Positions 35,293 to 56,331 of a stretch of DNA of 64,000 bases are shown here, in pieces. The notes under the pieces are model-generated. The model saw only the letters and a list, made by a program, of their open reading frames with translations, was not told the origin of the DNA and ran no database searches. The stretch's first letter is position 1; every line of letters begins with the position of its first letter. Origin of the DNA: Ignavibacteriales bacterium. Lineage in GTDB: Bacteria > Bacteroidota > Ignavibacteria > Ignavibacteriales > Melioribacteraceae. The DNA lies in contig JACOUS010000041.1 in NCBI GenBank assembly GCA_016177735.1, positions 1 through 64,000 on the forward strand, given 5' to 3'. The translations under genes were made by a program, and so were the position numbers.

Positions 35293-36120
35293 TTGGGTGT
35301 TAAATTAACAAGCTCCGAAATACGATCCATTGAAGAAGTAAAAACTAAAGGAAACATTCCGCGCCACATAGCAATAATTATGGACGGCAACGGAAGATGG
35401 GCTAAAAAAAGAAATCTTCCGCGCGTTGCCGGTCATAAGCGCGGTGTACAATCGGTGCGCGCTGTTGTTGAAGCATGCGGTAGTCTCGGTGTAGAATTTC
35501 TGACACTCTATTCCTTTTCAACGGAAAATTGGAAACGCCCGCAAGAAGAAGTTTCTGCTTTAATGCGTTTGATTGTTAAAAGTCTGCAGAACGAAACGGA
35601 CGAACTTAATTCAAAGAATATTAGATTAACAACTATCGGCGACTTAAAATCTCTTCCGTTGATTGTTCAACAAGAACTCAGGCAAGCTTGCAATAAAACA
35701 GAACATAATACAAAAATGACTTTGAACCTTGCACTGAGTTACAGCGGGCGATGGGAACTTGTTGAAGCGATAAAGAATATAAGCACACAAGCTGTTAACG
35801 GTAAAATTAAACCGGAAGAAATTTGCGAAGCAGTAGTTGCACAAAATCTTACTACTGCAAATATCCCGGATCCCGATCTTTTGATTAGAACAAGCGGCGA
35901 AATAAGAATCAGTAATTTTTTATTGTGGCAGATTGCATACTCTGAAATTTTTGTCTCCGACATACTCTGGCCCGATTTCAGATGCAAGCATCTCCTCGAA
36001 GCAGTAACCGACTATCAAAAGAGAGAAAGAAGATTCGGCTTAGTTAGTGAACAATTATCGGATAACTTGAGCAAAAATAATAATGCTAAATCTCACTCCA
36101 AGAAACCGGCTAAAGTTTAG
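35293..36120 (+). CDS. uppS: Undecaprenyl diphosphate synthase
   Basis: The cis-prenyltransferase extends farnesyl diphosphate to the C55 carrier used for peptidoglycan, O-antigen and teichoic-type polymers. The catalytic aspartate is Asp31 in IMDGNGRWA. Downstream motifs AGHKRG, FSTENW, RTSGEIRISNFLLWQ and AYSE are all present. The only usable in-frame start is a TTG at 35293, since a stop codon lies just upstream in frame. The gene overlaps bamA by 38 bp. It is the first gene of a long envelope operon. Length 275 is normal with a short charged tail. Confidence 0.95.
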   Translation: MGVKLTSSEIRSIEEVKTKGNIPRHIAIIMDGNGRWAKKRNLPRVAGHKRGVQSVRAVVEACGSLGVEFLTLYSFSTENWKRPQEEVSALMRLIVKSLQNETDELNSKNIRLTTIGDLKSLPLIVQQELRQACNKTEHNTKMTLNLALSYSGRWELVEAIKNISTQAVNGKIKPEEICEAVVAQNLTTANIPDPDLLIRTSGEIRISNFLLWQIAYSEIFVSDILWPDFRCKHLLEAVTDYQKRERRFGLVSEQLSDNLSKNNNAKSHSKKPAKV

Positions 36121-38575
36121 TCTCATCATTTTATTAATTTCTGCCGCGGCAGTTCACCCTCAATTTCAAAAGGTGAATTACAGCATTCTCGGCATTACTG
36201 TCGTAGGAAGTAAAACCGCAGATGCGCAGACAATTATTGCCAACACGGGTTTGAAAACCGGCGATGAAATTGATTTCCCGGGCGATCAAACCAACAATGC
36301 CATAAAAAGATTATGGAATTTGGGAATCTTTGAAGACGTTCAGCTTCTCATTGAAAAGAAAATTGATAACGGCATTTTTCTGCAGATCGTCGTTAAAGAA
36401 TATCCGAGGCTGGAAAAACTTGTTGTCCGCGGAAACGACGAGATAAGCGAAGATGAAATAAATAAGAAAGTAACTATCGTACGCGGGCAGACACTCAAAC
36501 CTCAGGAACTCGCACGCATCAAATCCAAAGTTAAATCTCTGTACGATGACGAAGGTTTTTTAAACGCAAAAATTGATATCAATTACTACACTTTTTTTCA
36601 AGCCGACACAACGGAAGATGAAATAATTGTTACTTGGCGCAACGAAAAAAATCTTTCTAAAGAATATCAAACAACGTACGAGCGCGAATCCTCTTATTCT
36701 CTCAATTCAATTGCGAGAATAAAAGACAGAACACTTGCTCTTTTCGATATTGAGGAAGGCGATGAAGTTTCGGTAAGACAAATTATTTTTAACGGCAACG
36801 AAGCCTTCGAAGATGATGATCTTAAAAGTGAATTTGACGAAACAAAAGAAAAACGCTGGTGGAAATTTTGGTCGTCTTCCAACTTAAAAAAAGATAAATT
36901 CGAAAAAGACAAAGAGCTTCTCGAAAAATATTACCGTAAAAACGGCTACAGAGATTTTACACTGCTGAGCGATTCGCTCGTTTACTCCGAAGACAAAACC
37001 GAGGTTGACGTTGTTGTAAATCTTTACGAAGGCAAGCAATTCAAAGTGCGCAATATTGTTTGGGAAGGAAATACTGTTTACCCGAACGAACTTCTTACCG
37101 AGCGGCTTGAATTTGTCAAAGGCGATGTGTTCGACTACGAAAAATTCAATTACAATCTGCACTACAACGAAAAGCAATCCGATGTATCTTCGCTTTATCA
37201 GGACAACGGCTATCTTGCATTTTCTGTTGATGCAAAAGAAGAAAAAGTTGCCGAAGATTCTTTGGATATTTTAATCAGAGTAAATGAAAACAACCGCTTC
37301 AAAATCGGCAAAGTAGAAATTCAAGGAAACGAAAAAACAAAAGACAAAGTTATTCGCCGCGAACTTTACACTATTCCCGGAAATTATTTCAGCAGAAGTT
37401 ACATTTTGAGAAGTATCCAGCAGTTATCAAATCTTCAGTTCTTCAATGTGGAAGCTCTTTACAAAGGTGTTGATTACAGACCGGCAAACGACAGCACGGT
37501 AAATATTTCGTACAAAGTGGAAGAAAAATCGAGCGACTACCTGAATGCTTCTGTTGGTTACAGCGGTGCGTTCGGTTTCAGCGGCTCGGTTGGATTTACA
37601 CTTACAAATTTTTCAATCACCGAACCGTTCCAAATGGGCGGTGGACAAATTCTAAATTTCAACTGGCAGTTCGGCGTTGGAAATTATTACAGAACTTTCT
37701 CGCTCGGATTTACCGAACCTTGGTTTATGGATACACCCACTTCGCTCGGGTTTGATTTGTTCGATACACGCCAAAGATATGTTTACGATCTCCGCCAATC
37801 AGGAATTACAACAAGAGTTGGAAGAAGATTAACATGGCCCGATGATTATTTTTACGTGCAAGGAATGCTTCGCTTTCAATACAACGATGTTATAGAAGGA
37901 CAAAATTATTACGTTGAAGGATTAACGAGACAATATACTTTGGGCATAACAATCAGCAGAACAGATATTGATAATCCAATCTTTCCGGCGCGCGGTTCAA
38001 AATTTAGTTTTAGTACCGAACTGACCGGCGGTCCGTTACTGCCGGGCAATGTGGATTATTATAAGATAGATTTTAAAACTGAATGGTATAAACCGTTATT
38101 CAACTCAAACAGAATTGTTCTTTATTCCAGCACAGATATCGGATACATACATAATCTCGGCGATAGAAAAAAAATCAATCCGTTCGAATTTTACTACATG
38201 GGCGGCAACGGAATGATTATAGCTACAACACCTCTGCGTGGTTATGAAGACCGCAGTCTCGGTTCGCAAGATGCCGCCGGCAACGTAATCGGCAGCAGTG
38301 TGCAAGCCAAATTTACTACAGAATTCAGAGCTGCACTTGCTCTCGAACCAATTCCAATTTATTTATTGGCATTTGCAGAGGCTGGTAACGTATATTTCGA
38401 TATCAAACAAACGGATTTGTTTAATTTGAAACGCTCGGTTGGTGTGGGCGCAAGAATTTTGATAAACCCGATCGGTCTGCTCGGGTTCGATTACGGGTAT
38501 GGTTTCGACCGCAGAAGTGTTGACGGTAAAGAACCGCAATGGATTTTCCACTTCCAGTTTGGCAAAGGTTTTTAA
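36083..38575 (+). CDS. bamA: Outer-membrane protein assembly factor BamA
   Basis: BamA folds and inserts beta-barrel proteins into the outer membrane. A signal peptide (about 27 residues, cleaved near HPQ) is followed by five POTRA-like domains (about 30-420) and the Omp85 barrel (about 490-830). Typical barrel features include the FPARGSKFSFSTELTGG loop and the C-terminal strand ending WIFHFQFGKGF with a terminal aromatic residue. Its start lies inside uppS, giving translational overlap. The Skp-like chaperone genes follow, then the lipid A genes, as in many Gram-negatives. Length 830 residues is typical. Confidence 0.95.
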   Translation: MLNLTPRNRLKFSLIILLISAAAVHPQFQKVNYSILGITVVGSKTADAQTIIANTGLKTGDEIDFPGDQTNNAIKRLWNLGIFEDVQLLIEKKIDNGIFLQIVVKEYPRLEKLVVRGNDEISEDEINKKVTIVRGQTLKPQELARIKSKVKSLYDDEGFLNAKIDINYYTFFQADTTEDEIIVTWRNEKNLSKEYQTTYERESSYSLNSIARIKDRTLALFDIEEGDEVSVRQIIFNGNEAFEDDDLKSEFDETKEKRWWKFWSSSNLKKDKFEKDKELLEKYYRKNGYRDFTLLSDSLVYSEDKTEVDVVVNLYEGKQFKVRNIVWEGNTVYPNELLTERLEFVKGDVFDYEKFNYNLHYNEKQSDVSSLYQDNGYLAFSVDAKEEKVAEDSLDILIRVNENNRFKIGKVEIQGNEKTKDKVIRRELYTIPGNYFSRSYILRSIQQLSNLQFFNVEALYKGVDYRPANDSTVNISYKVEEKSSDYLNASVGYSGAFGFSGSVGFTLTNFSITEPFQMGGGQILNFNWQFGVGNYYRTFSLGFTEPWFMDTPTSLGFDLFDTRQRYVYDLRQSGITTRVGRRLTWPDDYFYVQGMLRFQYNDVIEGQNYYVEGLTRQYTLGITISRTDIDNPIFPARGSKFSFSTELTGGPLLPGNVDYYKIDFKTEWYKPLFNSNRIVLYSSTDIGYIHNLGDRKKINPFEFYYMGGNGMIIATTPLRGYEDRSLGSQDAAGNVIGSSVQAKFTTEFRAALALEPIPIYLLAFAEAGNVYFDIKQTDLFNLKRSVGVGARILINPIGLLGFDYGYGFDRRSVDGKEPQWIFHFQFGKGF

Positions 38576-43966: not shown

Positions 43967-45040
43967 ATGAAAAGACTACTAATTATCGTTAATATATTCT
44001 TCAGCATTACATCTTTTGCACAGAACGTTGATGAAATTGAATTTTATCTGGACGGCACTGCGGTAACAGATATTGCTGTTTACCAAAATGAAATTTGGGT
44101 TGCAACAAACGGCAGCGGAATATTCAGATACACAAGCAGCGGCAACAAATGGCAGCAGTATTCAACTTCACTCGATAACATTCAGCACGATTTTTTTTAC
44201 TGCATAGCCGCAAGCAAAGATTTTGTTTGGGCTGGTTCAACGGACGGACTTTTCATACTCGATAAAAAGCGGAACAGCTGGACAAAAAGGAAATTCGGTC
44301 TCGGCGGTCAGCTCGGCAATTGGATCCGTTCGCTCACATACGATAAATACGACGACGTTGTGTGGATCGGCAGATTCAAATATCTCACAAAGTACGATCT
44401 TAAAAACCGCAGATATACGGATTACGATTTAACAATCCGCGGCAACGAAAAAACAAACACAATAAAAACAATTCAAACCGACGGCGACAGCGTAGTTTGG
44501 TTCGGAACAGAAGCCGGGCTTCACAAGTATGATAAGTCAAAAAACTTGAACAACGGTTCAATTACTTTTTATGACAATAGATTTAATTATTTTAACGGCG
44601 AAGGTGAGCAAGTTTCTATTTCGGCAATTCTGTTCGAAAGAAATTTTGTGTGGATCGGTCTCGATGAATTTATTACGCCGGAACGACCGGAATTTAATCT
44701 CGGCGGATTGTTCAAATACAACAGAAGGAATGACTGGCTCAGATTCGATGACTCGAAAGGATTGAGCGGCAACGGCGTTTTCGATCTCGAGCGAACCGGA
44801 GATTATATTTGGGCATCGCTTTACCAGTTTGGAAAAAACACAAAAGAAATTTACGGGCGCGGTTTGGTTCTAATAAATAGAATTAACAACAAAGTTATTC
44901 CCGTTAACGATGAACGGATTTCCAAAACGATCAACACAATTTTTTTTGACGGAACGTTTTTGTGGCTTGGTACGGATAAAGGATTGGTCAAAATAAATTT
45001 CTTCAACAAACTTGCTCAATGGTCAAAAGGGGTTAATTAA
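43967..45040 (+). CDS. Secreted single beta-propeller protein
   Basis: A signal peptide (about 19 residues, cut near SFAQ) is followed by about seven propeller repeats with the 'xxVWIGTxxGLxxYD' pattern seen in two-component-regulator propellers. Examples are NEIWVATNGSGIFRY, KDFVWAGSTDGLFIL and SVVWFGTEAGLHKYDK. No kinase, membrane segment or sorting domain is present, so it is probably periplasmic. The stop codon overlaps the start of the heptose kinase gene (TAATG), suggesting co-regulation with heptose synthesis. Role unknown; could bind a polymer or a partner protein. Confidence 0.82.
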   Translation: MKRLLIIVNIFFSITSFAQNVDEIEFYLDGTAVTDIAVYQNEIWVATNGSGIFRYTSSGNKWQQYSTSLDNIQHDFFYCIAASKDFVWAGSTDGLFILDKKRNSWTKRKFGLGGQLGNWIRSLTYDKYDDVVWIGRFKYLTKYDLKNRRYTDYDLTIRGNEKTNTIKTIQTDGDSVVWFGTEAGLHKYDKSKNLNNGSITFYDNRFNYFNGEGEQVSISAILFERNFVWIGLDEFITPERPEFNLGGLFKYNRRNDWLRFDDSKGLSGNGVFDLERTGDYIWASLYQFGKNTKEIYGRGLVLINRINNKVIPVNDERISKTINTIFFDGTFLWLGTDKGLVKINFFNKLAQWSKGVN

Positions 45041-46035
45041 TGATCAGTACAACGTTGGACTCTCTAAAAAAATTAAAGAAAAAATTTTACAACAAACGGG
45101 TTGCCGTTATTGGCGATATGATGCTCGACTGCTATTACTGGGGCAACGTTAACAGAATTTCTCCCGAAGCGCCGGTTCCGGTTATCGAAGTTGACGATGA
45201 GTTTTCACGGTTCGGCGGAGCTTTGAATGTTGCACACAATATTACAACCCTCGGCGGAATTGCTTTTCCCGTCGGTGTAATCGGAAACGATAACGAAGGC
45301 AAAATTTTACGAAGACTAATGAAGGAAGCAAAGATTAACGGTGAAGGGATAATCGCTGAAAATAAAAGACCAACTACCGCGAAGACAAGAGTTATAGCCG
45401 ATAAACAACATGTCGTTCGTATTGATAAAGAGAAAACCCATGCAATTGACTCGAAGACAGAACAGAAAATTTTGAACGCATTAAAAAAAGACATCAAAAA
45501 AATTGATGCCATTATTCTTGAGGATTATAACAAAGGAGTTTTAACACCGAATCTTATTTCGGAAATTATTTCCATTGCCAATAATGAAAAAAAGATTGTC
45601 ACCGTAGATCCGAAGTTCCATAATTTTTTCGCTTATCAAAATGTTACCGTATTTAAGCCGAACAGAAAAGAAACGGAAGATGCTTTTGGAATAAGAATTA
45701 AGACTGCAAAAGATGTTACGAACGCCGGCGAAAAACTTCTTGAACGGCTCAAATCAAAATATGTTTTACTGACTCTCGGCGCAGAAGGAATTGCATTGTT
45801 CGAAAAAAATAAATCGGAACGGAGAGTTCCTACCAAAGCAAGAAAAGTTGCCGATGTTTCCGGCGCCGGCGATACCGTAATTTCCACTTTAACGATGGCA
45901 CTTACAGCCGGAGCCGATATTTACGATGCTACATATCTTGCTAACTTTGCCGGCGGACTCGTCTGCCAGGAAGTTGGCATCGTGCCGATTGAAATAGATA
46001 ATTTGTTCAACGCAATAATGGATGAAATAAAATGA
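45040..46035 (+). CDS. rfaE1: D-glycero-beta-D-manno-heptose-7-phosphate kinase
   Basis: A ribokinase-fold sugar kinase that makes heptose-1,7-bisphosphate, the precursor of ADP-heptose for the LPS core. The 331-residue protein has the PfkB-type signatures: VIGDMMLDCYYWGNVNRISPEAPVPV, GGALNVAHN and the anion-hole region VADVSGAGDTV with its catalytic aspartate. In many bacteria this domain is fused to the adenylyltransferase (HldE); here they are separate and overlap by four bases. Confidence 0.94.
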   Translation: MISTTLDSLKKLKKKFYNKRVAVIGDMMLDCYYWGNVNRISPEAPVPVIEVDDEFSRFGGALNVAHNITTLGGIAFPVGVIGNDNEGKILRRLMKEAKINGEGIIAENKRPTTAKTRVIADKQHVVRIDKEKTHAIDSKTEQKILNALKKDIKKIDAIILEDYNKGVLTPNLISEIISIANNEKKIVTVDPKFHNFFAYQNVTVFKPNRKETEDAFGIRIKTAKDVTNAGEKLLERLKSKYVLLTLGAEGIALFEKNKSERRVPTKARKVADVSGAGDTVISTLTMALTAGADIYDATYLANFAGGLVCQEVGIVPIEIDNLFNAIMDEIK

Positions 46036-46514
46036 ACTACGTCATTCATGTTGAAGAGCTTGCGAAAATCAGAAATGAGTTGAAGCATAAAAACAAAAAA
46101 ATTGTTTTTACAAACGGCTGTTTCGATATTATTCACGCCGGGCATGTTGATTATTTGACGAAGGCAAAAGAACTCGGCGATGTTTTAATTGTTGCGCTCA
46201 ACTCCGATGAATCCGTCACACGAATCAAAGGAAGCAAACGCCCGATCGTTCCTTTACCTGAACGTGCATTTGTAATTTCGCAGTTGAAAGCTGTTGATTA
46301 TGTTACAGTATTCGAAGAAGATACTCCGTACGAAACAATAAAAAAACTTGTGCCGGATATTCTTGTGAAAGGCGCCGATTGGTCGAAGGAAAATATTGTC
46401 GGGAAAGATATCGTTGAAAATGCCGGCGGCTCGATCGAGACTATTGAATTTGCTAACTTCCAATCCACAACCAATATTATCAAAACAATTGTGGAAAGAT
46501 TTAAAGAGCAATGA
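46032..46514 (+). CDS. rfaE2: D-glycero-beta-D-manno-heptose 1-phosphate adenylyltransferase
   Basis: A 160-residue nucleotidyltransferase that activates heptose-1-phosphate with ATP to ADP-heptose. The HxGH motif is in TNGCFDIIHAGHVDYL, and the second nucleotide-binding motif is in FQSTTNIIKTI. It is equivalent to the C-terminal half of HldE. Its ATG overlaps the preceding stop and its own stop overlaps tamB, so the three are translated together. Confidence 0.94.
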   Translation: MNYVIHVEELAKIRNELKHKNKKIVFTNGCFDIIHAGHVDYLTKAKELGDVLIVALNSDESVTRIKGSKRPIVPLPERAFVISQLKAVDYVTVFEEDTPYETIKKLVPDILVKGADWSKENIVGKDIVENAGGSIETIEFANFQSTTNIIKTIVERFKEQ

Positions 46515-49500
46515 ACGAAGAAATACCGAAAGCGTCACAACCGAAGCTTAAACGTTCTCTATTCAGAAAAATTATAAATCTCTTCATCGGGATTTTCCTC
46601 GGGATTGTTCTACTTCTTGTTCTGTTCATCGGGTTCTCTCAAACAAAAACCTTCCGCGATTTTTTAAGAGATAAAATTATTTCCCAAGTTAATTCTTCCA
46701 TCAACGGAAAATTGAGCATAGGAAAAATTGAAGGAACTCTTCTCACTTCTGTCTTTTTGCGCAGCATAATACTCACTACACAAGGCGACACTTTACTAAA
46801 CGCAAAGAATGTTGTTGTTAAAGTGAATGTTCTCCAGCTTCTATTAAAAAAAATTTATGTGAGAAATATTCTGCTCGAAGATGTAAAAGTAAAACTTCTG
46901 CAAAACGAAAAAGGCGAATGGAATTTTGAAAAGCTTGCAAAGCCCACTGAAGAAGACACGACAAAATCCGGCTTTACTTTTTTAATTGAAGTGAACGACC
47001 TTCAATTGCGCAACATTGATTTGGTGAAACAGACTTTTGAAAATGTTAACTCGCAGAAGAAATATCAAACGGCAAATTTTGGCGACTTGCGAATTGACAA
47101 CATTTACTTAACGGCACGCGCCTTCATTGATATCCAAAATTCCGATTATCTCCTTCAGCTAAAAGAATTATCTTTCAAACCGAATCTTAACCGGTTTACT
47201 CTGCGAAATATATCAGGTGAATTTGCCGTTACAAAAAATTTTGCGGGCGTAAAAAACTTTGCGCTTATCACGGATAGCAGCGACTTACGGTTAAATGCAC
47301 GAATTGACAGCTTGAATCTTTTCGGCAATGTTGCGCTCGAAGATTTCAAAAACTATCCGATCTCGATTGACCTCGACGCCGCATCCATAAATTTTGACGA
47401 TCTTTCTTCATTCATCGGCAGTACCGAAATTTTGAAAGGGAATCCTTCCGCAGAATTGAAAGCAAGCGGAAAGTTCGGCGGATTCAAAATTGAAAAGCTG
47501 ATTGTCGATTACAGAACAACTCATTTCGAATTGAGCGGCGAAGTTTTAAAACTTAACACGCCCGAAAATCTTTACATCAAAGCAAAGATTACCGATACCG
47601 ACATCAACTACAAAGATGTTAACGCTCTGCTCCCCTCTCTTGAACTGCCGGAGTTTGCAAAGTTATCCGTCTCCGGCGTAAATGTTGAGTACGAAGGCGA
47701 GCCGGTGAATTTTAAAACAAAGTTCTCCGGAAACATTGAAGACGGTTTTTTGCAGTTCGACTGCAAAATGAATCTTGCCGCCGAACCGATGAGATACGAT
47801 ATCAACTTTGAAACGGGCGATCTCGATTTGAGTCCGGTAATTGGTTTAACTACACTGCTCAATTCAAAAGGAAGTTTAACCGGCAAAGGTGTTTCGCCCG
47901 CGGATCTAAAATCGGAATTCCAGTTAACTGTGGAAAATTCTATGTTCGATCAAGTTCCGGTCGATAATTTTAAAATTACTTCAAAAGCTGCGGACAAAAT
48001 TATTGAACTTGAAGCCGAAGGTTTTAGCAAAGATTCCGAAGCATTGATTCTCGGAAGCATGGAGTTTGATAAAGATACAATCCCAACTTACAGTTTGGTC
48101 GGAAGCTTAAAACATCTCGATCTTTCTTCATATCTAAAAGACGATGAATACAAAAGCGATCTGAATTTTTATTTCAGCGCAGAAGGCAAGCACATCGATA
48201 TCGATGAAATAACCGGAACATTTTCCTTCGGCGTTGATTCATCGCAGTTCAAGAACACAAAAATTAATTACTCGCACATCGATGTTGATTTCAAAAAAGA
48301 TTCAACTTACAGAGAGATAAACCTCAAATCGGATTTTGTCGATTTCAATATCAACGGAAAATTTTCTTTGAAAGACGCACTCGATCTTTCGACTTACGAA
48401 GGGAAAACCATTTCGAAAATTATTGCAGATAAACTTGAAGAGTTGAATCCCCTTGCGGTAATGAATGAGTCGAGAAAAGAAAAAGTTGAAAGCGAGCCCG
48501 CACCGGATATCATTAATAAAGAAATACTTTTTAATTACGATTTCACTTTCAAAGATTTTTCTTTGTTTGCCGAGTTATTTGGTTTCGAAAAACTTGATAT
48601 TATCGGTTCCGGCAGCGGAACGATTCAAAACAAAGTTCCTAATTTTTCCGTCAACTCTGAAATCGATCTCGATTATTTTATAATGACCGATAACGACAGC
48701 ACGATTTATTTATCCAGCGTTGAAGCCGACATAAATTTCACACGCGACAACAGATTTACTTCTTTCGATAATTTGTTCGGTACTGCTTCACTTAACGGAA
48801 AAAGATTTTATTCGCAAGCAAGCATTAAAAATATTGCCGCGGACGTTGTGTTCAACCAGAGCAAACTTTTCTTCAGCGCTTCTGCTGATTACGAAGATTT
48901 CTTCAAAGCCGAAGCCGAAGGCGTTGTGCTGATGACCCCGAATGAACAGCAAATTATTATAGATAAAGTCGATGCGAGCTACGAAGGATTGAGCTGGACA
49001 AATAAAACTCCGATAAAAGTGTTGTTCAATCCGCAAAGGTTCAGCATTGCCGACTGCAAAGTTTACAACGACACATCTTTCATCAGCATAAACGGAATAA
49101 TTGAGAGCAGCGGCAAACAAGATATTAACGTGAGCGCATCTAAAATTTCAGGTTATGTACTCGGTAAACTATTTGCCGGTACCGAAAACCACGAGCTTAC
49201 CTCAAACGGAGAGTTTAACGGAAAGATAACCGGTTATTTCAAAAATCCTATTATCCGTTCCACTCTAAAAATCGATAAGCTTTCGTACAATAATTACAGG
49301 CTCGGAATGCTGACCGGAACAATTGATTACGCAGATAAACAAGTGATAACCGGTATAAATTTTCTCGATTCGACATACAACGCAAACAAACCACTCCTTA
49401 CTTTTTCGGGAACGATTCCGGTAGATTTGAGTTTTGGTTTCGTAAAAGATAGAATGATTAAAGATCAGCAGATGGATTTAAAATTAGTTTCGATCGATTT

Positions 49501-51001
49501 TAATCTGCGCTCGCTCGGCAACACACTGCCCGGCATTAAAGATCAATCGGGAAACTTGGTTTCGGATATTTCCATTAAGGGAACCATCAGCAATCCGCAG
49601 TTTTCAGGATATTTAACTTTATCGAACGGTTACTTTTTATCAACCTATTCCAATCTTCCCTACTCAACGGAATTTAAAATGAAATTGGAAGAACAAGGAA
49701 TTATAGTTGATAACTTTACACTTGCAAATGCCGGCGGAACAAAATATCCGGGCACAATTAAAGGATACGGCACAATAATGTTCGACGGGTTCAGCATCAA
49801 AGATTTGTTGATAAGATTCAACGGAGACATTGCTTTGCTGAGTAATCAATCGAGAACAAACAGTCCGCTCTTTTACGGAGATTTAAAAATTGGAACCGGA
49901 AGCGACTGGCTGCTGACTCTTCAAAATGAAAGACTCTTTTTCAAAGGCGATATTCTTTTAAAGGAAACAAATCTTACAATTACAACAACCGAGCAAGCGG
50001 CACAGTCCAACAATAATTTTAATATTATTTACGTAATAGATTCAACAAAGATAGACCGCGAGCAGATTAAGTTTCAGGAAATTCTCTCCGGCGGAAAAAA
50101 TGGTCAAGCCGGCACTTCATCAACAGAGAAAAAAATAAATATAGATTATGATATCGGCGTGAAAGTAGAAAATACTGCGCGTATAACTTTTATACTTTCG
50201 CAAGCGGTAAACCAAAGACTACTCGTTGAAATGCGCGGTGATCTGCAATATGTAAATATTGGCGGCGCAACACGTGCACAAGGAGCTTTCACATTAATGC
50301 CCGGCTCCAAATTGGAGTTTTTCAAAAACTTTGATGCAGAAGGTTTCCTTCGTTTTGAAAGTGATGTTACAAATCCGTATCTCGATGTGGTTGCAACATA
50401 CACAAGTGATTACATCAATCCTCGCGATGCCGATGCAACTCCACAAGATGTAGCAGTAAAAATTAAAATCAAAGGTCCGCTCAACGATCTCGGAAAAAAT
50501 CTTACCAATAATCCCGAAAGCATGGGCATTTATGTCGGTTCAAGAAATATTCAAAACAATGTTAGAGAAAGCAGATACGATTACGCAGATGCGTTCTCAT
50601 TTATTCTGATCGGCAAATTTAAAGATGATTTGACTGCTCAGGATAAAACGCAAGTTGCCGGTTTAACAAATGATCTCGGCAATACGGCAACTTCATTTCT
50701 CGGACCGATTCTCACAAGCTTCGTAAATTCTGCCGTTGGTGATTTAATCAACAACATTCAGATAAGCCAAAGCGGCGAGTACACAAAATTCAATCTCTCC
50801 GGAAGAATTCAAAACTTGCGCTACAGTTTCGGCGGAACGACCGAGTTGTTTCAAAATCTCAACAAAGCTAATATCAAGATCGAATATCTCTTCGACCCGA
50901 AATTTTTGATACGGCTCGAAAGAAAAGATCCCGTTGCACAAACATTTGGACTTGATGAAAAGATAAACGAAATTGCATTAAAGTATAGATTCGAGTTTTG
51001 A
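46511..51001 (+). CDS. tamB: TamB-family translocation/assembly protein
   Basis: A 1496-residue envelope protein. It has one N-terminal membrane anchor (about residues 20-45) and a long stretch of repeated beta strands resembling AsmA/TamB-type bridge proteins. The C-terminal DUF490/TamB domain (about 1150-1496) includes QNERLFFKGDILLKET and RVDPYLDVVATY-like segments. TamB works with an Omp85 protein in outer-membrane protein assembly or phospholipid transport. A TamA partner is not adjacent; the barrel protein at 53128 could play that role (inference). It overlaps rfaE2 by four bases and rnr by one base. Confidence 0.88.
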   Translation: MNEEIPKASQPKLKRSLFRKIINLFIGIFLGIVLLLVLFIGFSQTKTFRDFLRDKIISQVNSSINGKLSIGKIEGTLLTSVFLRSIILTTQGDTLLNAKNVVVKVNVLQLLLKKIYVRNILLEDVKVKLLQNEKGEWNFEKLAKPTEEDTTKSGFTFLIEVNDLQLRNIDLVKQTFENVNSQKKYQTANFGDLRIDNIYLTARAFIDIQNSDYLLQLKELSFKPNLNRFTLRNISGEFAVTKNFAGVKNFALITDSSDLRLNARIDSLNLFGNVALEDFKNYPISIDLDAASINFDDLSSFIGSTEILKGNPSAELKASGKFGGFKIEKLIVDYRTTHFELSGEVLKLNTPENLYIKAKITDTDINYKDVNALLPSLELPEFAKLSVSGVNVEYEGEPVNFKTKFSGNIEDGFLQFDCKMNLAAEPMRYDINFETGDLDLSPVIGLTTLLNSKGSLTGKGVSPADLKSEFQLTVENSMFDQVPVDNFKITSKAADKIIELEAEGFSKDSEALILGSMEFDKDTIPTYSLVGSLKHLDLSSYLKDDEYKSDLNFYFSAEGKHIDIDEITGTFSFGVDSSQFKNTKINYSHIDVDFKKDSTYREINLKSDFVDFNINGKFSLKDALDLSTYEGKTISKIIADKLEELNPLAVMNESRKEKVESEPAPDIINKEILFNYDFTFKDFSLFAELFGFEKLDIIGSGSGTIQNKVPNFSVNSEIDLDYFIMTDNDSTIYLSSVEADINFTRDNRFTSFDNLFGTASLNGKRFYSQASIKNIAADVVFNQSKLFFSASADYEDFFKAEAEGVVLMTPNEQQIIIDKVDASYEGLSWTNKTPIKVLFNPQRFSIADCKVYNDTSFISINGIIESSGKQDINVSASKISGYVLGKLFAGTENHELTSNGEFNGKITGYFKNPIIRSTLKIDKLSYNNYRLGMLTGTIDYADKQVITGINFLDSTYNANKPLLTFSGTIPVDLSFGFVKDRMIKDQQMDLKLVSIDFNLRSLGNTLPGIKDQSGNLVSDISIKGTISNPQFSGYLTLSNGYFLSTYSNLPYSTEFKMKLEEQGIIVDNFTLANAGGTKYPGTIKGYGTIMFDGFSIKDLLIRFNGDIALLSNQSRTNSPLFYGDLKIGTGSDWLLTLQNERLFFKGDILLKETNLTITTTEQAAQSNNNFNIIYVIDSTKIDREQIKFQEILSGGKNGQAGTSSTEKKINIDYDIGVKVENTARITFILSQAVNQRLLVEMRGDLQYVNIGGATRAQGAFTLMPGSKLEFFKNFDAEGFLRFESDVTNPYLDVVATYTSDYINPRDADATPQDVAVKIKIKGPLNDLGKNLTNNPESMGIYVGSRNIQNNVRESRYDYADAFSFILIGKFKDDLTAQDKTQVAGLTNDLGNTATSFLGPILTSFVNSAVGDLINNIQISQSGEYTKFNLSGRIQNLRYSFGGTTELFQNLNKANIKIEYLFDPKFLIRLERKDPVAQTFGLDEKINEIALKYRFEF

Positions 51002-53106
51002 TGAAAAAAGAAATTAAAGCATTTTTTAAGAACCACCCTTCTCTAAAAGTTAAGTCAAACGAGATTGCCGTTAAACTCGGCATTACCGAGGAATATCAAT
51101 ACGCAGAGTTGAAACATGTTCTGCATAAACTTACCGAAGAAGGTGTGATTGAAAAATTCGGAAAACGTTATTCGCTTGTGCACGGCAAATCTGAAAAACT
51201 GATCGGCACTGTGCAAATTGTTAACGAAGGAAGTTACGGCTTCGTTATATTAAAAGAAGGCGGATTGAAAACCGATGTTTTTGTTGCCGGTAAAAATTTG
51301 GGCACGGCTTTCGACAGCGATATTGTTGAAGTAAATTTCTTCGCAAAGAAAACCGGCAGAAGCATTGAAGGTGAAGTAATCCAGATTATCGAACGAGCGC
51401 ACACAGAAATTGTGGGCACTCTGCAGAAAAGTAAATCGTTCTATTTTGTAATTCCAGATGATAAAAAAATTCACCGCGATATTTATGTGCACCCCAAAAA
51501 GATTGGGCATGCAAAAGTTGGCGATAAAGTTGTTGTTGCAAATATCGAATGGAGATCGCCGGATTTAAATCCCGAAGGAACAATAACGGAATTACTCGGC
51601 AAAGCCGGAACCTACGATGCTGAAATTGCTTCGATAGCAAGAGAATTAAAACTGCCGTATAAATTTCCAAAAGAAGTTTTAAAGGAAGCAGAAACAATAT
51701 CCGTAGAAATTCCTGAAAAAGAAATTAAGAAACGCCTCGACTTGCGCAACACAATAACTTTTACGATCGATCCCGATGATGCAAAAGATTTTGACGATGC
51801 AGTTTCAATAGAAGAACTCGAAAATGGAAATTATTCCGTCGGTGTTCACATTGCAGATGTAAGTCATTACGCGCGCGAAGGACACAGAATCTACGAAGAA
51901 GCATTGAAGCGCGGAACAAGCGTTTATCTTGTCGGCAAAGTAATTCCGATGCTTCCCGAAAATTTATCGAATGTAATCTGCTCGCTTGTTCCCGACAAAG
52001 ACCGGCTTACATTTTCCGTAATTGCGGAAATAACACCCGCCGCTAAAATTGTTAAATATGAAATTTGCAAAAGTATCATCAACAGCAAAAGACGTTTTAC
52101 GTACGATGAAGTACAAAAAATTCTGGACAACAAAAAAGGCGAACACTACGAAAAGATTTTTAAATTAAATGAAATCGCCAAGCAGCTCCGCCAGAAAAGA
52201 ATGAAGAAAGGGAGTATAAACTTTTTTACTCCTGAAGTTGTCTTTAAACTGGATAATTCAGGCAAACCTGTTGATATAACCGTAAAAGTAATTAAAGAGA
52301 GCCACAACCTGATTGAAGAATTTATGTTGATGGCAAATCAAATAGTTGCCGAGCAGTTCAAGCCCAAAAAGAACATAGAAGCGATTCCTTTTGTTTATAG
52401 AATACACGATCTGCCGGATAAAGAAAAGGTAAATGAGTTTGCGCGGTTTGTAAGATCGCTCGGTTATTCTTTCGACCCGAACTCTGCAAACAAACCTTTG
52501 CAGTTTCAAAAACTTTTGGAAAGCGTTCAAGGCACCGAAGAAGAAGCAGTTGTTAACGAAGTTGCAATTCGTTCAATGGCAAAAGCAGTTTACTCAATAA
52601 ATAACATCGGGCATTACGGTTTGGGGTTCAAATATTATACTCACTTCACTTCTCCCATCCGCAGATTTCCCGATCTTGTTGTTCATAATCTGCTTAATAA
52701 TTTTTTAGATAATAAGTTAGAGAAAAATTTATCCATAGCAGATTTGGAAGAAATTTGCAATCATTCGTCTGCTCAAGAACGGAATGCTATAAATGCCGAA
52801 CGGCTTTCGGTAAAGTTGAAACAAATTGAATATTTGAAAGGTAAGGTAGGAAGTGATTTCCACGGTGTTGTTTCGGGCATTACACATTTTGGAATCTTTA
52901 TTGAACTGAGCCAAAATTTGGCTGAAGGAATGATACGATTGAGGGATTTGGAAGACGACTTTTATATTTACGATGAAAAAAATTATTCCATCACCGGAAG
53001 AAAATACGGAAGAAGAATCCGTTTGGGCGATAAAATAAATGTAAAACTGATACGGGTAGATGACGAGAAACGCGAAATTGATTTTGTCCTACTCGAAAAT
53101 GATTAG
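51001..53106 (+). CDS. rnr: Ribonuclease R
   Basis: A 3'-5' exoribonuclease of the RNB family that degrades structured RNA. Order: an N-terminal helix-turn-helix-like segment (residues 1-60), cold-shock domains (about 65-225), the catalytic RNB domain with the acidic cluster in TIDPDDAKDFDDAVS (about residues 253-267), and a C-terminal S1 domain (about 610-695). The length of 701 residues fits. I chose the ATG at 51001, which overlaps the tamB stop (TGATG), over the TTG at 50998. Its placement after tamB in an operon is ordinary for this lineage as far as I can tell. Confidence 0.95.
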   Translation: MKKEIKAFFKNHPSLKVKSNEIAVKLGITEEYQYAELKHVLHKLTEEGVIEKFGKRYSLVHGKSEKLIGTVQIVNEGSYGFVILKEGGLKTDVFVAGKNLGTAFDSDIVEVNFFAKKTGRSIEGEVIQIIERAHTEIVGTLQKSKSFYFVIPDDKKIHRDIYVHPKKIGHAKVGDKVVVANIEWRSPDLNPEGTITELLGKAGTYDAEIASIARELKLPYKFPKEVLKEAETISVEIPEKEIKKRLDLRNTITFTIDPDDAKDFDDAVSIEELENGNYSVGVHIADVSHYAREGHRIYEEALKRGTSVYLVGKVIPMLPENLSNVICSLVPDKDRLTFSVIAEITPAAKIVKYEICKSIINSKRRFTYDEVQKILDNKKGEHYEKIFKLNEIAKQLRQKRMKKGSINFFTPEVVFKLDNSGKPVDITVKVIKESHNLIEEFMLMANQIVAEQFKPKKNIEAIPFVYRIHDLPDKEKVNEFARFVRSLGYSFDPNSANKPLQFQKLLESVQGTEEEAVVNEVAIRSMAKAVYSINNIGHYGLGFKYYTHFTSPIRRFPDLVVHNLLNNFLDNKLEKNLSIADLEEICNHSSAQERNAINAERLSVKLKQIEYLKGKVGSDFHGVVSGITHFGIFIELSQNLAEGMIRLRDLEDDFYIYDEKNYSITGRKYGRRIRLGDKINVKLIRVDDEKREIDFVLLEND

Positions 53107-53127: not shown

Positions 53128-56100
53128 ATGAAAAAAAATTTCTTAACAATTGCCGCAATGATTTTTTTAACGGGCATTACATTTGCACAATTCGGGCAAA
53201 ACAAAGTTCAGTACAAAGACCACAACTGGTATTACATACAAACAAAACATTTTGATGTTTACTTCGATAAAGGCGGCGAACGAATTGCTGAGTTTACTGC
53301 ATCTATTGCCGAAGACGCTCTTGCCAATTTGCAGAAAGATATGAATTACCAGATCAATAATAGAATTTCACTCATCGCGTATAATTCCCACAATGATTTT
53401 CAGGAAACAAACGTAACTGATGAATATACCGGTCAAGGAATCGGCGGCTTTACCGAACCTTTCAAAAACAGAGTTGTCTTCCCTTTCGAAGGTTCGTATC
53501 AAAAATTCAAACATGTTATTTATCATGAACTTGTTCATGCAGTAATGCAAGACATGTATTACGGCGGTACGATACAAAATATTATTTCTCGCGGAATAAC
53601 TTTGCAGCTTCCCCATTGGTTTATGGAAGGCAGTGCAGAATTTCTATCTCAGGGCTGGGAAACAAATACCGATATGTTCCTCAGGAATGCAATCATCAGC
53701 GAATCATTACCCGACATAAATCAACTCGGCGGTTATCTCGGTTACCGCGGCGGTCAATCCGTATTTAAATATATTGCCGATACTTACGGAAGACAAAAAA
53801 TCGGCGAGTTGATGAATAAAATTCAAACTCACGGTTCGCTCGAAGCGGCACTCAAAGCTTCCATCGGAATTGATTTCGAAGAACTAAATACAAGATGGAA
53901 AAAAAGTTTGAAGAAAGAATACTGGCCCGATATTGCAAAACGCGAAGACCCGGATGAATTTGCAAAGAGATTAACAGACAACAAAAAAACAATAGGATTT
54001 TATAATACAAGCCCGGCAATTTCTCCGCAAGGCGATAAAATAGCTTTCATTTCCGATAGAGATATTTATCTCGATGTTTATATCATGGATGCAAACGACG
54101 GAAAAATTTTGAAGAAGATTGTTGAAAGCGGAAAGACAAATGATTTTGAAGAACTTAATCTTCTACATCCATCGCTTACCTGGTCGCCCGATAATAAAAG
54201 GGTTGCGCTCTCTTCCAAGAACAGCGGCTTCGATGTTATTACAATAATTGATACAGAAACAGACGAGAGCAGTGAACTCCCTTTTAAGTTTACCGGCATC
54301 GAATCGGTGAATTGGTCGCGCGACGGTAACAAACTTGCGTTCAATGCACAGAACTCGATTCAATCGGATATTTATGTTTACGATTTCACAAACGGTTCTC
54401 TTGAAAACATTACCAACGATCTCTTCAGCGATTTTGATCCGGTATGGAGCCCCGACGGAAGTGCAATTGTCTTTTCATCCGATAGAGAAAATTATGTAAG
54501 CGGAAAAATATCAGATGATTTTATGATGCAGAACCACGATTACGAATTTCTCGATCTCTATCTGCTTAACATTGCTTCAAAAAATATTGAAAGAATTACG
54601 GATTGGAAGTACAGTGCCGAAAGAGCAACAGTAGTTTCGCCGGACGGCAAAAGCATTTTGTTCATCTCCGATAAAAACGGCATTAACAATATTTACCGCA
54701 AGCAGATTCAACTTCCGGAAGACGGTTCGGTAAAATCAATTGTAGAATTAAAAGCAGTGCCGCTTACAAATTCTTTAAGCGAGTTAAGCCAGATGTCTCT
54801 TTCTTACGACGGAAAGAAAATGGTCTTCTCTGCACTCTACAATATGGGTTACAATATTTTTCTGATAAACAATCCTTTCGAAATGTCGGTTAACAGAGAT
54901 ACGCTCGAATTAACAAGCTACATGTCAAGCGTAATAAATAAGAATTCTGAAAAACTTTTTGTTGATGAATCAATTAAACAGGCGAAAGATTCCGTTGCCG
55001 CTGTTGATGTAATCGAAGAAACACCCGAAACCGATTCAACAAAAAAAGAACGGACTATTTTTACCGGGCAGTATGTTTCCGATAAAAAAGAAAAAACAGA
55101 TTCCGTGAATACCGATTACAGCCGTTATGTTTTCGGCGCCAACAGTGAAGAAAGCGACAGTGCCCGCATCGAGAAAAGGAATCAGCTCTTCAGCGAAAAA
55201 CTTGATGATAACGGGAACTTTCTTGTTAACAGATACAAAATAAATTTCACGCCGGATTTAATTTATGCAAACGCCGGATACAGCACTTTGTACGGCTTGC
55301 TCGGTACAACCGTACTCTCCTTCAGCGATGTTTTGGGCAATCACAGATTAATCGGCATTACAAGTTTGCAAGTTGATATTAAAAACAGCGACTACGGTTT
55401 GGCTTATTATTATTTGGAGAACAGACTCGATTTCGGGATCGAAGGATTTCACATGGCAAGATTTTTATACAAGAATAGTTTTTTTGGTTCGGAGTTGTAC
55501 CGCTTCAGAAATTTCGGTGTTGTAGCCTCGGCAAGTTATCCGCTGGACCGCTTTTACAGAATTGACGGGTCGTTGAGTGTAATGAGTGTTACTTCAGAAA
55601 ACCTTGATAATCTTTCCGTTCCAACCGATAAAGCTACTTACGTAATACCGGCTCTAAGTTTTGTTCATGATAATACTCTTTGGGGATACACAGCGCCAAT
55701 TGAAGGAACGCGTTATAGTTTAACGGCATTCGGCAACCCCGGTTTTTCAAATCACACGCAGAGTTTCTATTCGTTTGTTTGGGATTACAGAACATACATG
55801 CGCTTTTGGTTCGATAACGCTTTTGTATTCAGATTATCCGGCGGATATTCCGGCGGTGCTAATCCTCAAAGATTTTTCTTGGGAGGCACCGATAATTGGA
55901 TTAACAGATCATTCGCTACAAACGATATTCCGATTGAAGACGCTTCAGATTTTGCATTCTTATCGCCCGCAATGCCGATGAGAGGTTACGATTACGCCGA
56001 ACAGATCGGCTCAAAGTTTTCATTGTTAAATCTCGAACTTAGAATGCCGTTGATCAGATATCTTGTTACCGGACCTCTGCCGCTCTTATTTCAAAATATT

Positions 56101-56331
56101 CTCGGCGGTGTTTTCATCGATGCCGGCTCTGCTTGGGAAAGTACAAATAAATTGAAACTCATCGGCAAAGATGAGTACGGAAATACCGTAACGGATGATC
56201 TGTTAATTGGCACCGGTGTGGGCTTAAGAATTTATATGCTCTTCTTATGGCGATTTGATGTTGCATGGAAATATAACATCGAAAGTTTTTCGAAGCCGAG
56301 ATATTATATTTCACTCGGGTTAGATTTCTAA
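53128..56331 (+). CDS. Zinc-protease-like / TolB-like propeller / outer-membrane barrel protein
   Basis: A signal peptide (about 20 residues) leads to a peptidase-MA-like domain (about 25-275). It has HELVH at His133-His137 and a glutamate pair in MEGSAEF (Glu167, Glu171), as in gluzincin metalloproteases. Residues about 285-620 are TolB/PD40-type propeller repeats with S-P-D-G and S-D-R motifs (WSPDGSAIVFSSDRE). After a charged linker (about 620-690) the last 375 residues look like an Omp85/surface-antigen-type beta barrel, ending with FSKPRYYISLGLDF. The combination suggests an outer-membrane protein with a periplasmic or surface protease head. The exact fold of the barrel is inferred from pattern only. 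Confidence 0.78.
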   Translation: MKKNFLTIAAMIFLTGITFAQFGQNKVQYKDHNWYYIQTKHFDVYFDKGGERIAEFTASIAEDALANLQKDMNYQINNRISLIAYNSHNDFQETNVTDEYTGQGIGGFTEPFKNRVVFPFEGSYQKFKHVIYHELVHAVMQDMYYGGTIQNIISRGITLQLPHWFMEGSAEFLSQGWETNTDMFLRNAIISESLPDINQLGGYLGYRGGQSVFKYIADTYGRQKIGELMNKIQTHGSLEAALKASIGIDFEELNTRWKKSLKKEYWPDIAKREDPDEFAKRLTDNKKTIGFYNTSPAISPQGDKIAFISDRDIYLDVYIMDANDGKILKKIVESGKTNDFEELNLLHPSLTWSPDNKRVALSSKNSGFDVITIIDTETDESSELPFKFTGIESVNWSRDGNKLAFNAQNSIQSDIYVYDFTNGSLENITNDLFSDFDPVWSPDGSAIVFSSDRENYVSGKISDDFMMQNHDYEFLDLYLLNIASKNIERITDWKYSAERATVVSPDGKSILFISDKNGINNIYRKQIQLPEDGSVKSIVELKAVPLTNSLSELSQMSLSYDGKKMVFSALYNMGYNIFLINNPFEMSVNRDTLELTSYMSSVINKNSEKLFVDESIKQAKDSVAAVDVIEETPETDSTKKERTIFTGQYVSDKKEKTDSVNTDYSRYVFGANSEESDSARIEKRNQLFSEKLDDNGNFLVNRYKINFTPDLIYANAGYSTLYGLLGTTVLSFSDVLGNHRLIGITSLQVDIKNSDYGLAYYYLENRLDFGIEGFHMARFLYKNSFFGSELYRFRNFGVVASASYPLDRFYRIDGSLSVMSVTSENLDNLSVPTDKATYVIPALSFVHDNTLWGYTAPIEGTRYSLTAFGNPGFSNHTQSFYSFVWDYRTYMRFWFDNAFVFRLSGGYSGGANPQRFFLGGTDNWINRSFATNDIPIEDASDFAFLSPAMPMRGYDYAEQIGSKFSLLNLELRMPLIRYLVTGPLPLLFQNILGGVFIDAGSAWESTNKLKLIGKDEYGNTVTDDLLIGTGVGLRIYMLFLWRFDVAWKYNIESFSKPRYYISLGLDF

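Follow-up and report, generated by a model that had tools for sequence, protein, structure and literature searches.

The gene at 53128-56331 (+ strand) of the window, that is, the whole stretch of 64,000 nucleotides of an Ignavibacteriales genome analysed here, encodes a single chain in which a zinc-protease head, a TolB-like propeller and a barrel of the BamA/TamA type follow one another, and the evidence for this anatomy is strong. The protein is likely to be a protease attached to the inner face of the outer membrane. On balance, we favour a zinc endopeptidase of outer-membrane biogenesis that is anchored in the outer membrane, faces the periplasm and has a role comparable to that of BepA beside BAM.

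Results

The open reading frame starts with ATG and comprises 1067 amino acids. Inspection of the translation by eye suggested a putative N-terminal signal peptide (aa ~1-20, 53128..53187) with no Cys near its end, followed on the same strand by a gluzincin (Peptidase MA) domain (aa ~21-283, 53188..53976), a TolB-type beta-propeller (aa ~284-600, 53977..54927) and an Omp85-type barrel (aa 708-1067, 55249..56328). The full-length AlphaFold2 model, obtained with 69 aligned sequences (pLDDT 80.5, pTM 0.78), has the layout of protease, propeller, low-confidence linker (aa 606-677, 54943..55158, pLDDT <50) and barrel. A Pfam scan at E ≤ 1 found no POTRA domain in the protein. A first-pass annotation made from the DNA letters had described a zinc-protease head with intact HELVH/EGxAE motifs, a TolB-like propeller and an Omp85-like C-terminal barrel lacking POTRA domains, and had proposed structure prediction as a check; the model bears this description out, with HExxH and Glu placed on a gluzincin fold and a barrel that resembles Omp85.

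The head matches Peptidase_MA_2 of Pfam (PF13485) over aa 61-262 (E 4.7e-15, 56.4 bits, cut-off 32.4). HELVH occupies aa 133-137 (53524..53538), which we take to provide two zinc-binding His and the catalytic Glu134, and EGSAE, the predicted third-ligand motif, begins at aa 167 (aa 167-171, 53626..53640). Of 582 confirmed relatives, the best 80, hence close kin, supplied the named loci in which conservation was followed; 75 of the 80 passed a full-length filter, and 68 of these together with the window sequence constitute alignment A2, while alignment A3 holds 52 and the window. These relatives come from Melioribacter, other Ignavibacteria and bins labelled Bacteroidetes or similar. H133, E134, H137, E167 and E171 are invariant in all 69 rows of A2. 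When modelled alone (aa 19-283, pLDDT 82), the head superposed on collagenase 8jt1 (Z 16.5, rmsd 4.0 over 228), M30 lugdulysin 7bb8 (Z 16.1, rmsd 5.8 over 230) and aminopeptidase N 6atk (Z 15.0). A chance match of the zinc motif is ruled out by the conservation in this close set together with the fold. The head combines HExxH and a downstream Glu on the fold, as gluzincins of clan MA do, and is predicted to form a zinc site; the retention of the motif throughout the closest set points to catalysis in the clade of the target.

The propeller repeats were recognised by PD40 of Pfam (82.7 bits, cut-off 20.9), and the TolB equivalog model of NCBIfam gave 116.5 bits, under its cut-off of 343. Residues 276-573 of the model superpose on the TolB-like structure 2ojh with Z 26.4 and rmsd 2.8 over 251 residues. 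No TolB over the family cut-off was found in the genome itself (G000), where the best of 17 matches (70.3 bits) was the propeller of the target and the next reached 69.4 bits; the cut-off is a strict one, passed by 2 of 14 control genomes. When solved structures were searched by sequence, TolB, other propellers and some peptidases matched via their propellers came up, with no Omp85 and no zinc-protease chain among the matches listed, so that the likeness of the barrel and the head to solved structures is visible by fold comparison only.

Sixteen barrel strands were counted by us in the predicted model, four strands of three residues being omitted. Residues 709-1067 superpose on BamA of D. radiodurans (8xnb; Z 25.4, rmsd 3.6, 313 residues) and the barrel also on that of TamA (8us4; Z 22.8, rmsd 3.5 over 285), for which Foldseek gave a TM-score of 0.76 by the length of 8us4. 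The motif RGY (aa 952-954, 55981..55989) lies between strands 11 (897-909) and 12 (963-973); R952 and G953 are present in all 69 rows of A2, drawn from the best 80 of 582, and position 954 is Y in 51 and F in 18. The Omp85 signature is described as a VRGF/Y motif in the excerpted text of PMC12611786, and a C-terminal 16-strand barrel of the BamA/TamA fold as the defining Omp85 feature in that of PMC4104836; the target has RGF/Y in loop 6 and, in the predicted model, the 16-strand barrel. PF01103 did not match the target at E ≤ 1, because the barrel is too divergent, and its cut-off was passed by three of nine homologues scanned; the paralogue in the same genome reached 45 bits in the genome scan, yet was absent from the hmmscan list. 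NCBIfam TamL matched the target with 28.7 bits over aa 880-1049 only. According to the wording in the PlpD paper, the Omp85 superfamily has at least one POTRA domain (PMC11116518), whereas the definition in PMC4104836, as excerpted, takes in subfamilies without POTRA, and it is only under the latter that the target is an Omp85 member.

An N-terminal enzyme sitting on an Omp85 barrel could in principle be exported by it to the cell surface or the medium. Such export of the N-terminal head was reportedly first proposed for PlpD, and the nearest folds of the head in the present protein include collagenases and lugdulysin, which are secreted. However, the head of PlpD turned out to be periplasmic, as stated in the excerpts of PMC11116518, a large propeller separates the head from the barrel in the target, and the surrounding genes are those of outer-membrane biogenesis. 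We therefore regard export as improbable and retain the periplasm-facing endopeptidase as the preferred reading.

The gene belongs to a string of genes that starts with uppS, bamA (36083..38575, four POTRA stretches; TIGR03303 421 bits, cut-off 297), two OmpH/skp genes, lpxD, an lpxC-fabZ fusion and lpxA and continues with an hldE-type pair, tamB, rnr and the target, all of these on the + strand; a lipoate ligase gene and a gene with a weak PorZ-like match stand between lpxA and the hldE-type pair. The neighbourhood is one of outer-membrane biogenesis. The PorZ-like propeller match of the gene at 43967-45040, before the hldE-type genes, is weak (27.1 bits, cut-off 27), and it is possible that this gene is a part of type 9 secretion. 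The two overlapping genes at 45040..46514 (+), which open the run that leads to the target, encoding a kinase (PfkB E 7.7e-40 for the first gene) and presumably a nucleotidyltransferase, are of a type that we take to be hldE. The tamB-like gene (46511..51001, +, 1496 aa) overlaps by 4 bp with rnr (50998..53106, +; Pfam RNB E 1.7e-111), the gene of ribonuclease R, which ends 21 bp before the target. The name tamB is weakly founded in this genome: profile matches are below threshold (ATportTamB of NCBIfam, E 2.8e-16, 58.6 bits against a cut-off of 825; AsmA of Pfam, 27.5 bits against 29.8), and scans of the genome with PF04357 and NF047952 gave no match. Orthologues at the same place in two other genomes (G120 and G232) pass PF04357.

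The first-pass annotation had placed the target next to tamB; the linkage is indeed conserved, with the correction that rnr adjoins the target and tamB lies one gene further upstream. Of the named loci, the best 80 of 582 relatives, 61 reach 4 kb or further upstream, and in 60 of these tamB and rnr were found on the same strand; rnr was found in 74 of the 76 with at least 900 bp. The median gap between rnr and the target is 20 bp (71 of 75 loci) and that between tamB and rnr is -1 bp (64 loci). A wider set of 37 loci of the phylum (L043-L079) was picked by hand for spread. There, tamB and rnr accompany the gene in 15 of 35 loci with 4 kb upstream, L058 having both, and are missing beside it in the other 20, which we count against our preferred reading; rnr was present in 16 of 36. 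On the tree of the target, each of the three main clades contains linked rows, hence the arrangement is most simply an old one that was lost several times, although the tree is blind to gain versus loss. Since rnr stands between tamB and the target, gene order alone is no proof of a complex. The neighbours of unlinked copies in the main clade, judged by eye from sequence starts, had no single theme. Downstream of the homologue in L060 and L067, a gene was seen that by eye resembles that of trigger factor.

The linkage in close kin, in part of the wider set and in all three clades, together with the barrel of BamA/TamA fold, is consistent with another reading, namely that in this lineage the target partners TamB in the outer membrane and does the work of TamA, with the propeller replacing POTRA domains. 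TamL counts bear on it as well: TamL was matched at E ≤ 1e-20 in 278 of 296 genomes of the phylum, weakly in most genomes of the same class and over the TamL cut-off in only 70 of the 296, and the 18 genomes lacking such a match (17 of the same class) all match the target. Furthermore, the genome has seven PF01103 matches besides the target, including BamA of the window, a patatin-POTRA-Omp85 protein, the paralogue on contig C2 and a 708-aa protein on contig C26, and the last of these, although matched by TamL over most of its length, stays under the cut-off (157.5 bits against 400). Nevertheless, this 708-aa protein, which has two POTRA stretches and no Cys near its N-terminus, falls with TamL in a quick tree of 63 barrel rows (SH-aLRT support only). 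One clade (SH-aLRT 99) unites all 28 protease-propeller barrels, the dead ones too, and another (98) unites 30 TamL or TamL-like rows, the 708-aa protein among them, which means that the genome retains a TamL-clade protein with POTRA domains and that the target, having neither POTRA domains nor a barrel within that clade, is not one. At E ≤ 1e-15, a TamL match was missing in only 2 of 38 chosen genomes, some matches being barrel-only, and an additional tamB lies close to a TamL-like gene in genomes of f29 and f30. The locus tags of tamL and tamB are far apart in F. johnsoniae, yet both genes appear essential there, according to the excerpts of PMC12045153, so a missing linkage between TamL and tamB says little.

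The proposal of the first-pass annotation that the protein may substitute for TamA is accordingly not supported in this genome, and we consider it unlikely that the target serves here as the partner of TamB. As all 18 genomes without a TamL match contain the target, it may substitute for TamA in their lineages; in the five of them that were fetched (G039, G055, G160, G204, G231), the gene is not beside tamB.

The family is widely distributed in its phylum. By our own count, 193 of 296 sampled genomes had a match to the target at E ≤ 1e-30, and 204 had one at E ≤ 1e-10; of the 11 weaker than 1e-30, the two that were re-examined (G015, G234) are confined to the propeller, and the full-length domain order was checked in the fetched loci. 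Seven plasmid records had a match, none spanning 80% of the protein. A paralogue of 935 aa with HELVH and EGLAE is encoded in the same genome (contig C2, L080:7452-10259, - strand). In a phylum-wide set of 37 sequences, which includes the window and this paralogue, both zinc His are present in 36 and lost in L064, and L059 carries HELVH behind a long N-terminal extension.

Distant members in other families have a similar length and the same domain order. When 19 such rows, including the paralogue, were aligned, nine had no HExxH, and single residues of the zinc motif survive in these, such as His133 in L199 and Glu167 in L214. The nine rows form one clade in a quick tree (SH-aLRT 100), which was made without the near rows L045, L049, L056, L073, L074, L077 and L078 and also without L065 and L066, and the architecture is kept throughout; RGF was found by pattern in the barrel region of eight of them, L214 being the exception. 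Judged by these alignments, the nine full-length homologues (L226-L234) make up a naturally occurring pseudoprotease clade, located in other families of the phylum. An intact copy is accompanied by a dead one in each of two genomes, G037 and G064.

Several neighbours recur beside the pseudoprotease genes: an FAD-dependent oxidoreductase (L226 and L228 by Pfam DAO, L230 and L231 by eye) and a protein of the metallo-beta-lactamase fold (L234 by Pfam; L227, L229, L230, L232 and L233 by eye). Very large proteins with SdrD_B, DUF11 and CHU_C-associated Ig domains are encoded beside two of them (L226:6-7424 and L231:4-7362, both on the - strand).

The pseudoprotease clade and the separate loss in L064, both of which keep the remaining protein, indicate that the scaffold does not depend on proteolysis in every case. 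They can also be read as a sign that the enzyme is secondary and that the family acts chiefly as a structural or lipid-homeostasis factor, the propeller and barrel forming a scaffold and the head serving as a binding domain; the pairs of intact and dead copies agree with this, as do the altered membrane lipids of a plpD mutant in the excerpts of PMC11116518. Against it stands the zinc motif, present in every one of the 69 closest rows from the best 80 of 582, and we find this reading quite unlikely.

Discussion

From these results, a hypothesis regarding the function of the protein may be put forward, in which we infer its catalysis, topology, substrate and partners. The Omp85-type barrel would fix a zinc endopeptidase to the periplasmic side of the outer membrane; the head and propeller would face the periplasm, because the N-terminus of an Omp85 barrel is located there. 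The propeller may act as a docking platform, as in TolB or BamB, and the protease may work near BAM or TamB, clipping outer-membrane or periplasmic clients that are stalled or misfolded, in the manner of E. coli BepA at BAM. The barrel would thus anchor and position the protease, not replace BamA or TamL. The genome has four M48 peptidase matches, three of them strong, and one of these peptidases might fill the BepA role. A bolder proposal, that the chain is a protease-docking-barrel machine which works with TamB as a TAM-type complex in much of Bacteroidota and has become a pseudoprotease in one clade, appears to us doubtful.

The target can be related to several known systems. A TolB-like propeller N-terminal to an Omp85 barrel is the arrangement of the proteins that Heinz and Lithgow named WD40-Omp85 in 2014 and likened to a BamA-BamB fusion (PMC4104836), and the target shares it; a protease head is not mentioned in the excerpts of that paper, whose separate 'Metallo' group, termed metalloproteases there, has PF00149 and not Peptidase MA as its defining domain. 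PlpD resembles the target in having an N-terminal enzyme, periplasmic according to the excerpted PMC11116518, on an Omp85 barrel, but its head is a patatin lipase and it has no propeller. BepA is likewise a zinc protease and acts on outer-membrane proteins at BAM, where BamB is a propeller on BamA (PMC13067283, in excerpt); however, BepA belongs to M48 and is separate from the barrel, whereas the target carries a head similar to collagenase, M30 and aminopeptidase N within a single chain. TamA and TamL have in common with the target the barrel fold and the linkage to tamB, and differ from it in that the target lacks POTRA, bears a protease and a propeller, and has its barrel in a separate clade.

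In the open-access literature searched, the name WD40-Omp85 was found in PMC4104836 only, no paper paired PF13485 with PF01103, and ribonuclease R was absent among the matches listed for a tamB/BamA/Bacteroidetes operon. Relative to that literature, as far as it was searched, three features are new: the conserved zinc head, the association with tamB and rnr, and the pseudoprotease clade.

If the hypothesis is true, many Bacteroidota bear a quality-control protease built onto an Omp85 barrel, and one chain fuses roles that in E. coli are divided among BepA, BamB and BamA. The pseudoprotease clade that exists in nature, together with the linkage to tamB, offers a direct handle on the separate roles of the head and the barrel.
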